NCBI GenBank assembly: GCA_903874965.1
Contig: CAIQUD010000004.1
Span: forward strand, 1-64,000
Source of the DNA: an uncultured Actinomycetes bacterium
GTDB taxonomy: Bacteria > Actinomycetota > Acidimicrobiia > Acidimicrobiales > RAAP-2
Reading direction: 5' to 3'
DNA: 64,000 nucleotides
Positions 8,796 to 38,707 of the stretch are shown here, piece after piece; position 1 is the first letter of the stretch; each line of letters begins with the position of its first letter. Position numbers and translations under genes: made by a program. A model generated the notes under the pieces. The model ran no database searches. It was not told where the DNA came from and saw only the letters and a program-made list of their open reading frames with translations.

Positions 8796-9947
8796 GTGTC
8801 TGAGACCCCCGTGAAGCCAGAAAAGCCCCAGTGGAAAGAACTCTTCCTTGAGGTGGTGACCTCAGGACTGTGCACTGGATGTGCGGGCTGCATCATTGCT
8901 TGCCCACACGACGTCCTGAACTATGACGACAAGCTTGGCAACTACAAGCCCTTCCACTTAGACATCGACGGTGGACGAGAGGACTGCACCCATGGCCAAA
9001 AGGGCTGCACGATGTGCACTCGAGCGTGCCCTCGTTTTCGCTCTTGGGAAACCGAAATCGACACCCACCTTCACGGGCGCGAGCGATCCGACGAAGACGT
9101 TGCTGGGCTTTCCCTCGACATCTTCTTGGCTCGGGCCACCGATCCAGAACTCTTGGAAGCTGGACAAGACGGCGGCTTTGTTTCGGCACTGCTGACGTTC
9201 GCACTCGAGAACGATGTCATTGATGCAGCGCTCGTTTCTGACCTAGAGGGCGATGGCACTTCGTGGAAAGCCGAACCAGCGGTCGTCACCGACCGAGCAG
9301 GCGTTCTCCGCACGGCGGGGTCTCGCTACACGTACTCCGCAAACACCCTTGCCTATCCGCAAGCGGTTGAAGGTGGCGCAGAACGGATTGCGCTCGTTGG
9401 CATGGGTTGCCAAGCCTCAGCACCTGGAGCGATGCAGGCACGCAAGGCAGGAAAGATTGCTCGTCGCCTGTCATTGACGATTGGTCTCTTGTGCTCGAAG
9501 ACCTTCGACGACGCAATCTTCGAAGAATTGTTCGAGGCAAAGTACAGCCTGACGAGATCAATGATCAAGAAGATGAACATCAAGGGTGTCTTCCAGATTT
9601 GGACCCATGACGGCGGCTACCACGAGGTTCCACTCAAAGAAGCCCATGCCTGGACCCGAGAGGGTTGCAAGGCGTGCCCTGACTTCGCAGCAGAACACGC
9701 AGACATCTCAACTGGCGGCATTGGCACGTTCTCCGATTGGACACTGACCATTGTTCGCACCGAAAAGGGTCGCGATCTCCTCAACCAGATGATCGAAGTC
9801 GGTGCTGTTGAAGTTCGCCCTGGAGACGACGATCCCGCTGCGCTGGCACTCCTTCGTCGCCTCGCAGGTGTGAGTCGCAAGCGTTGGCCCGCAACAGCAG
9901 TCCCAATGCCTGGTCGACTTCCCGCTCCTGCCGCACCGACTGCCTAA
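8796..9947 (+). CDS. Coenzyme F420 hydrogenase/dehydrogenase beta-subunit-like iron-sulfur protein (FrhB family)
   Basis: A 383-residue FrhB-family protein, starting at GTG. Two 4Fe-4S clusters are predicted near the N-terminus: C26-x2-C29-x2-C32-x3-C36-P and C64...C71-x2-C74-x3-C78-P. The C-terminal FrhB domain includes AGQDGGFVSALLTFAL and VGMGCQASAPGAM. Members bind FAD and oxidise or reduce F420 or pass electrons from ferredoxin. The redox partner is unknown; F420-type LLM enzymes occur elsewhere in the window, so F420 use by this organism is plausible. It precedes the phosphatase gene by 4 bp, so the two are probably cotranscribed. Confidence 0.85.
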   Translation: MSETPVKPEKPQWKELFLEVVTSGLCTGCAGCIIACPHDVLNYDDKLGNYKPFHLDIDGGREDCTHGQKGCTMCTRACPRFRSWETEIDTHLHGRERSDEDVAGLSLDIFLARATDPELLEAGQDGGFVSALLTFALENDVIDAALVSDLEGDGTSWKAEPAVVTDRAGVLRTAGSRYTYSANTLAYPQAVEGGAERIALVGMGCQASAPGAMQARKAGKIARRLSLTIGLLCSKTFDDAIFEELFEAKYSLTRSMIKKMNIKGVFQIWTHDGGYHEVPLKEAHAWTREGCKACPDFAAEHADISTGGIGTFSDWTLTIVRTEKGRDLLNQMIEVGAVEVRPGDDDPAALALLRRLAGVSRKRWPATAVPMPGRLPAPAAPTA

Positions 9948-18947: not shown

Positions 18948-20072
18948 TCAGCTGAGTTTCAGTTCCTGTCGGTACACACGAGCTGGACCCTGCGCCACGA
19001 TCTTCGTCGCCAACTGGTCAAACGCAACTGAAGCGTCGGAGGTTGGATCAACAACGGTGATCGGCAGTCCCTCATCGCCACCAGAACGAAGGGCAGGCAC
19101 AAGAGGAATCTGGGCGAGCAATGGAATACCGAGATCCTCCGCCAAGGTCTGACCGCCACCTTCGCCAAAGAGTTCATAACGCTTGCCGTCATCGCCGGTA
19201 AAGAAGCTCATGTTCTCAATGACGCCTCGAACGGAAAGCTTCAACTTCCGTGCGGCATATGCCGAACGTTGTGCCACTCGTTGTGCTGCAGCCTGCGGAG
19301 TCGTCACCACGTAGATCTCGACCTTTGGGACTACTTGACTCAAGGTGAGGGCCACGTCTCCAGTCCCAGGCGGCATGTCAATAAGGAGGTAGTCAACCGG
19401 TCCCCAGAACGCATCACCAAAGAACTGCTCAATGGTCTTGTGCAGCATCGGACCTCGCCAGATCACTGGCTGGTCTTCTGGCACGAAAAAGCCCATCGAG
19501 AGGCACCGCACGCCGTGGGTTGACGTCGGAATCACCATGTCGGCGAGCACGACTGGATCGTGATCGCACCCAAGCATCTTCGGAATTGAGAAGCCATAGA
19601 CGTCGGCATCAAGGATGGCGACGTTTTTTCCTAACTTCGACAAGGCAATCGCAAGGTTGACCGTGACCGACGACTTGCCAACGCCACCCTTGCCGGAAGA
19701 AATTCCGAGAATGCGGGTCGGTGAATCCGACTTCAGGATCTTGGGTGATGGGTCATTGTGATGGTGACCCTCGTGCTCATCTTCCATCTGAGCGCGCAGG
19801 GCATGGCGAAGCGTCAACCGCTCGTCATCAGTCATCGTCGCCTGGAGGACTACGGAACCCGGAAATCCAAGTTCGCTCAGAAGTGACCGAACCGCACCTG
19901 TGACGGCGTCAGCGGTTGGCCAAGCCCCAATCGGAAATGCAAGGGTGACTTCAGCTGAACCCTTCTTGACCGACAGCGCACGGAGGTAACCCAACTCACC
20001 AATCGGAAGCGTGAGTTCTGGATCGATGATCGCACCGAGCTGGGTAGACAACGGGACGTCGTTGGTGTCCAT
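18948..20072 (-). CDS. mrp: Mrp/ApbC family Fe-S carrier ATPase
   Basis: A 374-residue Mrp-family P-loop ATPase. I use the ATG at 20072, preceded by AGAAGG at 8-base spacing. The N-terminal MIP18-like domain (about 5-95) is followed by a His/Asp linker and the deviant Walker A SSGKGGVGKSS (127-135), DADVYGFSIPKML and LIDMPPGTGDVALTLSQ. The CxxC motif of E. coli ApbC is absent (ENMSFFTGDDGKRY), as in other actinobacterial Mrp proteins. It likely delivers 4Fe-4S clusters. It is divergent from a SufR-like regulator, consistent with an Fe-S theme. Confidence 0.92.
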   Translation of the reverse strand: MDTNDVPLSTQLGAIIDPELTLPIGELGYLRALSVKKGSAEVTLAFPIGAWPTADAVTGAVRSLLSELGFPGSVVLQATMTDDERLTLRHALRAQMEDEHEGHHHNDPSPKILKSDSPTRILGISSGKGGVGKSSVTVNLAIALSKLGKNVAILDADVYGFSIPKMLGCDHDPVVLADMVIPTSTHGVRCLSMGFFVPEDQPVIWRGPMLHKTIEQFFGDAFWGPVDYLLIDMPPGTGDVALTLSQVVPKVEIYVVTTPQAAAQRVAQRSAYAARKLKLSVRGVIENMSFFTGDDGKRYELFGEGGGQTLAEDLGIPLLAQIPLVPALRSGGDEGLPITVVDPTSDASVAFDQLATKIVAQGPARVYRQELKLS

Positions 20073-20118
20073 TCGAGAGCCTTCTCTAAGCAAGGGGCTC
20101 TATTTCGAGCCGCCTCGG

Positions 20119-20128
20119 TACACTAGTG
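20119..20128 (+). promoter_or_regulatory. sufR-like promoter: -10 TACACT overlapping palindrome CACTAGTG
   Basis: TACACT (20119-20124) is seven bases before the regulator's ATG, with no RBS, so a leaderless start is likely. The perfect palindrome CACTAGTG (20121-20128) overlaps the -10 and is a candidate autoregulatory operator. The upstream GGCTC-N6-GAGCC inverted repeat (from about 20096) could also be an operator. Confidence 0.4.
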
Positions 20129-20131
20129 ACC

Positions 20132-20881
20132 ATGGCGACCACCACGAACGGACGACGACCGAGCGTTGAGGCACCTGACCCAAGTGACGGGAAGGCGACC
20201 TTCACCAGTTTCGTCACTGCCGTCACGGCTGCATTTGGTGATCCAACTCGCCGAGAGATTTACCTTCGACTCCGCTCTGAGCCAGGAATGACCGTCGCGG
20301 AACTCGCTGATGCTTTTCAACTGCACCCAAACGCCGCCCGGCATCATCTCGATCGACTCGTTGACGGTGGCTATGTCCGGGCAGAGACCATGCATCGCCC
20401 CGGTGAAGTTGGGCGCCCAGCCAAGCAGTATCACTGTGCAACCGAGACTCTTGGACTCGAGGATCTCACCCATCGTGAAGATCTCATTGTTCGCTTGCTC
20501 CAACGCTCGTTGGAAGTCCTTGGACCATCATTGGCCGAGAAAATTGCCACTGAAGTTGGAGATGCCTATGGACGCGACCTCGCCCGTTCAATGGGCAAGG
20601 CAGACGGCCAGCGATCGATCAAGGCCGCCATGGAATCAGTGGCCTCTGCCATGACCTCCCATGGATTCGCCGCACACACCGAAGATGACGGCAACACGTT
20701 GACCTTGGTTGCCGATCAGTGTCCATTTGGCGAAGCCGCTATGCACCAACCAGTCCTCTGTGCAGTTGATCGAGGAATGGTTGCCGGCCTGCTCGACGAA
20801 CTCTCTGGTGGCGACCTTGTGACCCCAGTGGTGCTCTCGTCAAAGGCTCGCGGCGACGCCGACTGTCGCACGGCCTACTGA
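20132..20881 (+). CDS. SufR-like HTH transcriptional regulator
   Basis: A 249-residue regulator. The N-terminal winged helix covers about residues 20-95 (GDPTRREIYLRL, FQLHPNAARHHLDRLVDGGYV). The C-terminal domain ends with cysteines spaced C-x12-C (DQCPFGEAAMHQPVLC) and another Cys five residues from the end (DADC), like the Fe-S ligands of SufR-type sensors. Family members repress suf genes when clusters are plentiful. The downstream gene, four bases on, is a NifS-like protein, and mrp is divergent, both supporting an Fe-S role. The canonical sufBDCSU cluster is not in the window. Confidence 0.82.
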   Translation: MATTTNGRRPSVEAPDPSDGKATFTSFVTAVTAAFGDPTRREIYLRLRSEPGMTVAELADAFQLHPNAARHHLDRLVDGGYVRAETMHRPGEVGRPAKQYHCATETLGLEDLTHREDLIVRLLQRSLEVLGPSLAEKIATEVGDAYGRDLARSMGKADGQRSIKAAMESVASAMTSHGFAAHTEDDGNTLTLVADQCPFGEAAMHQPVLCAVDRGMVAGLLDELSGGDLVTPVVLSSKARGDADCRTAY

Positions 20882-20885
20882 GCCC

Positions 20886-21998
20886 TTGGGTCGGATTCAG
20901 CTCGACGCCGCCTCGGCGGTTCCGCTCCGGCCAACTGCGAGAGCGGCCATGGCCGATGCTCTCGAGCTCCCAGCAGCGGACCCAGGTCGAAACCATGAAG
21001 AAGGTCGACTCGTGCGTGCCCATCTCGAGCATGCTCGCAGCCAGGTAGCCGCAGCCATTGGGCTCCAAAACTCTCGCATTACCTTCACCTCGGGACTGGC
21101 GGAAAGTGTCCGGACCGTTCTCGCAAACCTCCAACAGCGATCACCAGGTGTCACGGTGGTCTCGGCAGTAGAACGAGAGACCTTCCACGCGTCAGCTGCT
21201 GCCCTCGGAACGTCAACCGTGGTGCGGGTCGACGCCGAAGGTTTCCTCGACCTCGAAGAACTCAACACAGCTCTCCAACGTTCTCCCGCCGCACTTTGCT
21301 GCCAATGGGCTAACCAAGAAGTGGGAACGATCCAGCCAATTGAGGAGATCTCCGAGCTCGCCGCCAGCCATGGCGTTCCCCTGATTGTCGATGCGACCGC
21401 CGCGGGACGCCTCCAACCAGCTCCATGGATGGCAGCAGCATGGGTTTTGCTGTCGAGTGAGGGTCTCGGGGGTCCTCCCGGCATCGGCGCCATTACGGTC
21501 CCACAAGGGCATGTCCTTCGACCACTCTTGCTCGGAGGCGCTCAGGAGCGAGGCCGGAGGGCATCACTCGAAGCAATTCTGCTCGCGCTTGGGTTCGGAG
21601 CGGCAGCCGAGGAAAATGCTGGAGCTCGGGCCGAAGAGTCGACTCGACTCGCTGCCCTCACCAACCGCTTGGTCGACGCAGCAAGGGCAATTGGCGGCGT
21701 CACCCGAATTGGGCCGAGCGCGCCGCGCGACCGCCTGCCGGACGTTGTCTGCCTCGAGGTTGAAGGCGTCAGCAGCGAAGCCATCGTTGTTGGTCTTGAT
21801 CGACGTGGTGTGGCGGCACATTCAGGTGCGGCATGTGCGAGCGAGACCTTTGAACCGAGCCCTGTGCTCTTGGCCATGGGGCTCGACGTCGAGCACTCCG
21901 TTCGACTGTCGGTGTCGTGGAAAAACGACGAGTCTGAAGTTGCCGAATTTGGCGAGCGGTTCGCTGCAGCGGTCGACGAACTTCGCGCGCTCCGTTAG
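20886..21998 (+). CDS. Cysteine-desulfurase-like protein lacking the PLP lysine
   Basis: A 370-residue NifS/IscS-like fold-type I protein. It is recognisable from its N-terminus (IQLDAASAVPLRP), TFTSGLAESV, NQEVGTIQP, VDATAAGRLQP, GGAQERGRRAS and the catalytic-cysteine loop HSGAACAS (C317). The PLP-binding motif, normally SxHKxxGPxG, reads SSEGLGGPPG: the His and Lys are Glu192 and Gly193. DNAA is DAAS and DAVQ is DATA. Without the Schiff-base lysine, ordinary desulfurase chemistry is not expected. It may be a pseudoenzyme, scaffold or sulfur-relay protein. It starts four bases after the SufR-like gene, so it is probably cotranscribed. Family call is firm; function is not. Confidence 0.82.
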   Translation: MGRIQLDAASAVPLRPTARAAMADALELPAADPGRNHEEGRLVRAHLEHARSQVAAAIGLQNSRITFTSGLAESVRTVLANLQQRSPGVTVVSAVERETFHASAAALGTSTVVRVDAEGFLDLEELNTALQRSPAALCCQWANQEVGTIQPIEEISELAASHGVPLIVDATAAGRLQPAPWMAAAWVLLSSEGLGGPPGIGAITVPQGHVLRPLLLGGAQERGRRASLEAILLALGFGAAAEENAGARAEESTRLAALTNRLVDAARAIGGVTRIGPSAPRDRLPDVVCLEVEGVSSEAIVVGLDRRGVAAHSGAACASETFEPSPVLLAMGLDVEHSVRLSVSWKNDESEVAEFGERFAAAVDELRALR

Positions 21999-37231: not shown

Positions 37232-37481
37232 GAGTGCATCTGCTAGCGATTTCAAGGACAACCGTTTTAGGGTTTACAGCGCTTCTACGTTGGGGGCGGC
37301 AATCCGCCACTACCGCACCAAGCTGGGATTCTCACAGGCTGAACTCGCGGCCCGAACTGGAATGCCCCGCAATTATGTCAATGCTCTTGAAAACGGACTT
37401 GAGACCGAACAGCTGAAGCGAACGCTCGAAATCTTGAGGGAACTCGGCGTTCGGCTCACCCTCGATCACGAGGATTGGTAA
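37230..37481 (+). CDS. hipB: HipB-like antitoxin, XRE-family DNA-binding protein
   Basis: An 83-residue protein from the ATG at 37230 (MSASASDFKD). The XRE helix-turn-helix is LGAAIRHYRTKLGFSQAELAARTGMPRNYVNALENGLET. It should neutralise HipA and autorepress via the half-sites upstream. It overlaps hipA by 1 bp (TAATG). Confidence 0.9.
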   Translation: MSASASDFKDNRFRVYSASTLGAAIRHYRTKLGFSQAELAARTGMPRNYVNALENGLETEQLKRTLEILRELGVRLTLDHEDW

Positions 37482-38707
37482 TGGCCGAAGTATTGGCACT
37501 CTGGCTCTACGGCGAACGTGTCGCAACGGTCTCGCGGGAACCAGGCGGTCGGATTCGACTTCGCTACACGGAAGAGGCCCTCGCCAACTACGAACTTGGA
37601 ACACCACTCCTCTCAATTGGACTTCCCCTCACAGACCTTGCTTCTTCCAACGCGAAAACACGATCGTTTCTCGACGGACTGTTGCCCGAGGGCGAGCCGC
37701 GCCGAGCGATAGCAGAACAACTCGATCTCAATGCCAATGACACGTTTGGTTTACTTCGTGCTCTCGGGCTTGATTGCGCAGGTGCCATCGTCGTGCAAGC
37801 AAGCGAACAACCTGCACCAATTGAGGCCACAACGTTGAGTGCACTACCGCTAGATGATCGGGAGATTGCAGACCGCGTTGCAAATCTCAGGAGCGCTCCT
37901 CTCGGCCTCACCGACCGCGTGAGGATTTCACTTGCTGGCGTTCAGGAGAAACTTCTTCTCACTCGCATGCCCGACGGCTCTTGGGGAGCACCCGTCGACG
38001 GCACACCTTCGACACATCTTCTTAAGCCAGAAATTCGTGACTTCCCTGAGACCGTCGAGAACGAGGCGTTCTGCATGCGCCTTGCACACAACCTCGGCAT
38101 CCAAACCGCAACAGTCGGAACCACCGAATACGGAGGACGAAAACTCCTCGTCGTCGAACGATTTGACCGAGTCGTCTCTCGTGCGGGCGATGTGGAGCGC
38201 ATTCACCAAGAAGACTTCTGTCAGTTCCTCTCCCTGTCTCCAAAGAAGAAATACCAAAGTGAGGGCGGTCCATCGCTTAAGCAGATCGCCACTGTTCTTA
38301 GGCAGTTTGCTCGTCCGGACTCTCTCAACAGACTGCTGAAGGCGACATTCGTCAATGTGCTCGTTGGCAACGGCGATGCCCATGGAAAGAACTTCTCCGT
38401 GCTGCACCATCGTGACGGGTCGATCGAATTGACGCCCCTCTATGACACGCTTTCGACGTTGTACTACATCGACGGAGAACTTTCGATGTACGTCGACAAT
38501 GTCCGAAAGACCGCGAGCGTCACCGGAGAGCGGCTGGTGAACGAGGCTGTTTCATGGGGAATCCGAGAGGAGTCAGCACGGCAGACGATCAGCGAATTGA
38601 CCGAACGCGTACCTGAAGCCCTTGGAGCAGCTCTCGAAGCTACCCCTGGGCTCCCAACGAAGATCCCAAAGATCATTGCGACGCAGCTGAAGCAACTCAA
38701 GAAATAG
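37481..38707 (+). CDS. hipA: HipA-type serine/threonine kinase toxin
   Basis: A 408-residue HipA. The N-subdomain contains FLDGLLPEGEPRRAIAE; VRISLAGVQEKLLLTR carries Ser150 at the autophosphorylation loop; the catalytic loop is NVLVGNGDAHGKNF with Asp299; the metal loop is LTPLYDTLST. Key residues are intact, so the toxin is probably active. E. coli HipA phosphorylates glutamyl-tRNA synthetase; the target here is unknown. GC is slightly lower than neighbours and the pair sits alone, suggesting acquisition by transfer. Confidence 0.93.
   Translation: MAEVLALWLYGERVATVSREPGGRIRLRYTEEALANYELGTPLLSIGLPLTDLASSNAKTRSFLDGLLPEGEPRRAIAEQLDLNANDTFGLLRALGLDCAGAIVVQASEQPAPIEATTLSALPLDDREIADRVANLRSAPLGLTDRVRISLAGVQEKLLLTRMPDGSWGAPVDGTPSTHLLKPEIRDFPETVENEAFCMRLAHNLGIQTATVGTTEYGGRKLLVVERFDRVVSRAGDVERIHQEDFCQFLSLSPKKKYQSEGGPSLKQIATVLRQFARPDSLNRLLKATFVNVLVGNGDAHGKNFSVLHHRDGSIELTPLYDTLSTLYYIDGELSMYVDNVRKTASVTGERLVNEAVSWGIREESARQTISELTERVPEALGAALEATPGLPTKIPKIIATQLKQLKK

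Follow-up and report, generated by a model that had tools for sequence, protein, structure and literature searches.

Locus and encoded protein

Does a NifS-like protein that has lost the PLP-binding lysine and kept the active-site cysteine still act as a cysteine desulfurase, and what could it do next to a SufR-type regulator if it does not? The question arises from a sequence-only reading of the window, the whole stretch of 64,000 nucleotides that was analyzed, and concerns the following features.

18948..20093, minus strand, mrp, divergent NBP35-type Fe-S carrier P-loop NTPase, conserved neighbor at the locus
20126..20881, plus strand, SufR-like ArsR/HTH regulator, upstream of and coupled to the NifS-like gene, three invariant Cys at alignment columns 212, 225, and 263
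20886..21998, plus strand, Lys-less NifS-like gene (370 aa), open reading frame with TTG start
21453..21482, plus strand, SSEGLGGPPG, residues 190 to 199, at the position of SxHKxxGPxG by alignment to NifS/IscS chains
21819..21845, plus strand, active-site Cys loop HSGAACASE, residues 312 to 320, with C317; H312, C317, and E320 invariant in 122/122 homologues

The initial description of a full-length frame with normal codon use, coupled to a SufR-like gene and with mrp divergent, was borne out: the TTG start lies four bases past the sufR-like stop, no internal stops were present, and the CAI-like value was 0.778 (neighbors, 0.70 to 0.83). The order mrp(<-) sufR(->) nifS-like(->) ccm(<-), the last being a convergent cytochrome c maturation cluster, was shared by the window and the orthologues. 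Gene fusion, hinted at by long open frames, was found in none of 154 sufR-nifS tandem pairs on the same strand, and a promoter/terminator scan found nothing. For the SufR-like gene, no further SufR homologue was found in any of the six Lys-less genomes examined. The three invariant cysteines of the regulator equal in number those needed in Rv1460 (C203/C216/C244) (PMC6034842). Cys240 of SufR was considered as a tracker of Lys loss and rejected, being present in Lys-bearing family members and absent in Lys-bearing outgroups.

By profile search the protein is a class V aminotransferase of fold-type I (PF00266, 116 bits). NifS was the top curated model at 203.5 bits against a cut-off of 530.75, so that the equivalog threshold was not reached. 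The AF2 model had an intact fold (pLDDT 92.3), matching Mycobacterium tuberculosis IscS (4isy; Foldseek E 2.4e-30) and the Archaeoglobus fulgidus IscS-IscU complex (4eb5) with a TM of ~0.9 each.

Residues of the PLP site

Alignment to solved NifS/IscS chains, among them NifS of Hydrogenimonas thermophila (5zsp), and to orthologues placed Gly193 at the Schiff-base lysine, as had been read from SSEGLGGPPG. The only lysine in the 370 residues, K346, is not conserved, so no other lysine could stand in. The PLP-stacking histidine was reported lost as well, and it is, but as Arg97, at the position of the acid-base His104 of E. coli; the histidine of SxHK to which that loss had been assigned is a different residue, on the phosphate side of PLP, and is replaced by Glu192. 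This phosphate-side residue corresponds to E. coli His205. The phosphate-loop threonine is Ala72, and the glutamine of DxxQ (DAVQ) is missing. Retained are D169, R35, E229, H312, and E320, together with Cys317 in SGAACAS and the GGAQERG block (residues 217 to 223), both present as first described. Compared with the NifS/IscS desulfurases (TIGR03402, TIGR02006), the fold, Cys loop, and overall length are thus shared, whereas the catalytic Lys, His, and Thr are absent.

In E. coli IscS, the K206A and H104Q substitutions abolish activity; H104Q is the palest variant, and K206A still holds some PLP with zero desulfurase activity (PMC9978102). Taken with these mutant data, the residue losses indicate that the NifS-like protein is very probably non-catalytic, predicted neither to bind PLP productively nor to release sulfur from cysteine.

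The Lys-less clade

A search of 172 genomes of the family and of named records recovered the orthologues with the same substitution that had been asked after. At least 15 genomes in five related genera carried a Lys-less orthologue at the same locus, every copy being without the lysine, and these formed one clade (support 100/99). His97 was replaced by Arg in 15/15 and His192 by Glu in 14/15, whereas C317, H312, E320, R35, E229, R222, and R225 were each present in 15/15. Loss of the lysine, both PLP-contacting histidines, and the phosphate threonine dates to the ancestor that these few genera share.

No stop or frameshift was found in any of the 15 orthologues, and the catalytic-loop residues were invariant over a deep divergence (identity to the query, ~34 to 81%). 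The gene is retained in small genomes of 1.6 to 2.7 Mb. The dN/dS ratio was 0.09 to 0.27 in Lys-less pairs, a range that argues against simple decay, and 0.13 to 0.26 in Lys-bearing pairs. Relative to mrp, dN was 1.8 to 4.2 in Lys-less pairs versus 0.5 to 3.1 in most Lys-bearing pairs, i.e., evolution was somewhat faster without the lysine.

Genus g10 (L253-L262) nests within the Lys-less clade in the SufR+Mrp tree; no SufR-linked nifS-like gene was found in the genomes examined, and sufR and mrp were kept in most. The likely order of events at the locus was enzyme, pseudoenzyme, deletion. The residual role was therefore dispensable in g10, and SufR does not always need the NifS-like protein, which argues against an indispensable role as its partner. 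Conversely, a few genomes had the nifS-like gene and no SufR, so the link is not absolute from either side. In L195, L204, L212, L218, and L189, the nifS-like gene and mrp were immediate divergent neighbors, and no sufR match separated them; L189 also lacked the lysine (His) and the stacking histidine (Ser).

The SufR-linked subfamily across Acidimicrobiia

Among 122 non-redundant SufR-linked orthologues from Acidimicrobiia, Cys317 was present in 122/122 and Lys193 in 95/122; Asp169, His312, Glu320, Glu229, Arg222, and Arg225 were each present in 122/122. In a quick tree of 138 sequences with SH-aLRT support only, parsimony placed about nine or ten losses of the lysine, of which at least eight or nine were forced by supported branches. 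Outside the clade described above, the lysine alone was lost, being replaced by T, R, S, or H, and the loss was often shared by two related genomes. Some of the singleton losses could be MAG errors; this is unlikely for the paired ones (g20, g8, and L167/L181). The canonical NifS paralogue of the same family, which adjoins mnmA where checked, served as control and had the lysine and the stacking histidine in 31/31 each.

The subfamily differs from canonical NifS/IscS by the signatures D32-P-G-R35, QERxRR..LE with E229, C289, and H312-SG-xx-C317-xx-E320, which are common to Lys-bearing and Lys-less members and are carried by the window protein. The sequence-only reading flagged the DNAA and DAVQ positions as altered; the changes of the NNE Asn and the DAVQ Gln are, however, subfamily-wide, with Asn replaced by His and the Gln mostly missing in Lys-bearing members too. 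Mutation of the DxxQ Gln abolished the activity of E. coli IscS (PMC9978102). Since both positions are altered even where the lysine is kept, the whole subfamily may be catalytically unusual.

Lysines are few in the subfamily as a whole, with 0 to 5 in Lys-less members compared to 20 in A. fulgidus IscS; Lys-bearing rows average ~2.5, a figure that also takes in canonical paralogues. Four records with an Acidimicrobiia locus (L190, L192, L205, and L198) are titled Bifidobacterium breve or Acidobacteriota and are probably mislabeled or contaminated MAGs. No description of this SufR-linked NifS-like family was found in the open-licence literature.

Comparison with known Lys-less homologues

The best PDB sequence match was A. 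fulgidus IscS (IscS 2; 4eb5, 4eb7, and 4hvk; E 2.6e-41, TM 0.9), in which the Schiff-base lysine is likewise replaced (D199) and the active-site cysteine kept; it has DATA in place of DAVQ, a motif altered in the NifS-like protein too. PMC7585200 describes this protein as inactive and as ligating the cluster on IscU, with reference to Marinoni 2012, Yamanaka 2013, and Pagnier 2014. The window's genome encodes a SufU-type protein, and cluster ligation of this kind would be conceivable here by analogy. Unlike the NifS-like protein, A. fulgidus IscS retains the stacking His and the phosphate Thr and has IscU as its partner. It groups with other IscS/NifS outside the SufR-linked subfamily and is not an orthologue; its lysine was lost independently.

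Two further cases were compared by their published descriptions. IscS1 of Methanosarcina acetivorans is also an IscS homologue without the catalytic lysine (PMC7585200) and, unlike the NifS-like protein, is archaeal and encoded with IscU1. Rv3778c of M. tuberculosis is an actinobacterial desulfurase relative without the PLP lysine, judged non-catalytic; it is described as distantly related to desulfurases, and the relevant passages of PMC12910592 mention no link to SufR. The closest solved fold, M. tuberculosis IscS (Rv3025c; 4isy), is actinobacterial with no other isc genes alongside. It differs from the NifS-like protein in having the lysine, being a catalytic desulfurase, and not lying beside sufR.

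Lys-less desulfurase homologues are thus already known in archaea and M. tuberculosis (Rv3778c; PMC12910592), and the "new class" of PLP-free Fe-S or sulfur protein originally proposed is too strong a term, as such IscS homologues with the cysteine kept have precedents. The novelty here lies in an actinobacterial subfamily, linked to SufR, in which the lysine was lost repeatedly and the Cys loop is invariant, and in one of its clades, which has a rewritten PLP pocket (R97, E192).

Proposed function and alternatives

The PLP-free part of that proposal stands as the best reading, because the PLP site was lost with the cysteine kept, clade-wide and under purifying selection. The explanation favored, at roughly an even chance, is a PLP-independent pseudo-cysteine-desulfurase whose Cys loop would carry persulfide or ligate an Fe-S cluster in the vicinity of SufR/Mrp. 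A function based on Cys317, which would sit on a mobile loop, together with H312 and E320, is proposed by analogy and given slightly less than an even chance. Cys317 would either accept persulfide sulfur from SufS or NifS and donate it onward or supply a cysteine ligand to the Fe-S cluster of a partner, in the manner of A. fulgidus IscS and IscU. By gene neighborhood, the likeliest clients would be SufR or Mrp, and the protein would tune cluster supply or sensing, not make sulfur. M. tuberculosis IscS, encoded apart from any other isc gene, influences both the SufR regulon and the WhiB3 regulon, and it binds WhiB3 directly, coordinating its 4Fe-4S cluster in vitro (PMC10848736); by this precedent, an Fe-S regulator could plausibly have a desulfurase-like helper. 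A broader version, held only tentatively, gives the whole subfamily a Cys-based function without need of PLP chemistry, e.g., Cys317 with H312 and E320 serving SufR or Mrp as a ligand or persulfide site. The lysine could then go nine or so times with the Cys loop unchanged, and the sole difference among lineages would be the persistence or absence of the former desulfurase activity.

Of the competing explanations, slow erosion after loss of desulfurase activity, a transitional, pseudogene-like stage without important function and with gene loss as its end, is rather unlikely and still has to be taken seriously. The deletion in g10 with sufR and mrp kept, the repeated loss of the lysine in the subfamily, and the raised dN relative to mrp all fit it; the intact frames of all 15 orthologues, the low dN/dS, the loop residues unchanged over deep divergence, and retention in small genomes do not. 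A sequencing, assembly, or frame artefact, conceivable in that the source genome is an 85% complete MAG of 145 contigs, is practically negligible: a sequencing error restoring HK is excluded by the recurrence of these substitutions in 15 genomes across five genera, independently deposited records among them, and the frame has no internal stops.

It is improbable that the protein pairs with an active desulfurase (NifS-MnmA or SufS) as the non-catalytic half of a heterodimer, activating or restraining it through an interface or a Cys loop contributed in trans. The fold family is dimeric, canonical NifS genes exist in sister genomes, and the loops QERGRR and DPGR, which in proteins of this fold flank the active site of the dimer, are invariant; the subfamily is, however, deeply diverged from the paralogues (~30 to 40% identity) and unlinked to them, and the window's own assembly, 85% complete, yielded no NifS-MnmA gene. 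Slightly less probable still is a surviving PLP enzyme that holds the cofactor without a Schiff base, through Asp169 and other contacts, and performs slow PLP chemistry. Asp169 is kept in 122/122, and the PLP held by E. coli IscS K206A is a precedent, but Thr72, His97, His192, and the Gln are gone too, H104Q alone gives the palest IscS, and K206A is without desulfurase activity (PMC9978102).

At a single locus, the subfamily presents a graded set of natural variants, from active-looking through single-residue-dead and fully PLP-site-dead to deleted, by which the Cys-loop role of desulfurases becomes separable from PLP chemistry. It ties a Lys-less desulfurase homologue to a SufR regulator and could decide whether a scaffold or ligand function is common to A. 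fulgidus IscS, M. acetivorans IscS1, and Rv3778c. Annotation pipelines would be likely to call the Lys-less proteins cysteine desulfurases, overstating sulfur-mobilizing capacity.

Genome context

SufB, SufC, SufD, SufS (with PHK), and SufU were encoded on another contig of the window's genome, and with this intact SUF system sulfur mobilization is independent of the NifS-like protein. Co-evolution of SufU with Lys loss, suggested by length differences in the PF01592 table, was rejected; the differences concerned linker length only, and all full-length SufU retain their Cys. Elsewhere in the window, positions 8796-9947 encode a homologue of the FrhB/FdhB-type F420 dehydrogenase beta-subunit with a ferredoxin-like domain, and positions 37475-38707 a HipA-like kinase (PF07804, PF13657), a possible toxin-antitoxin locus in a small genome.
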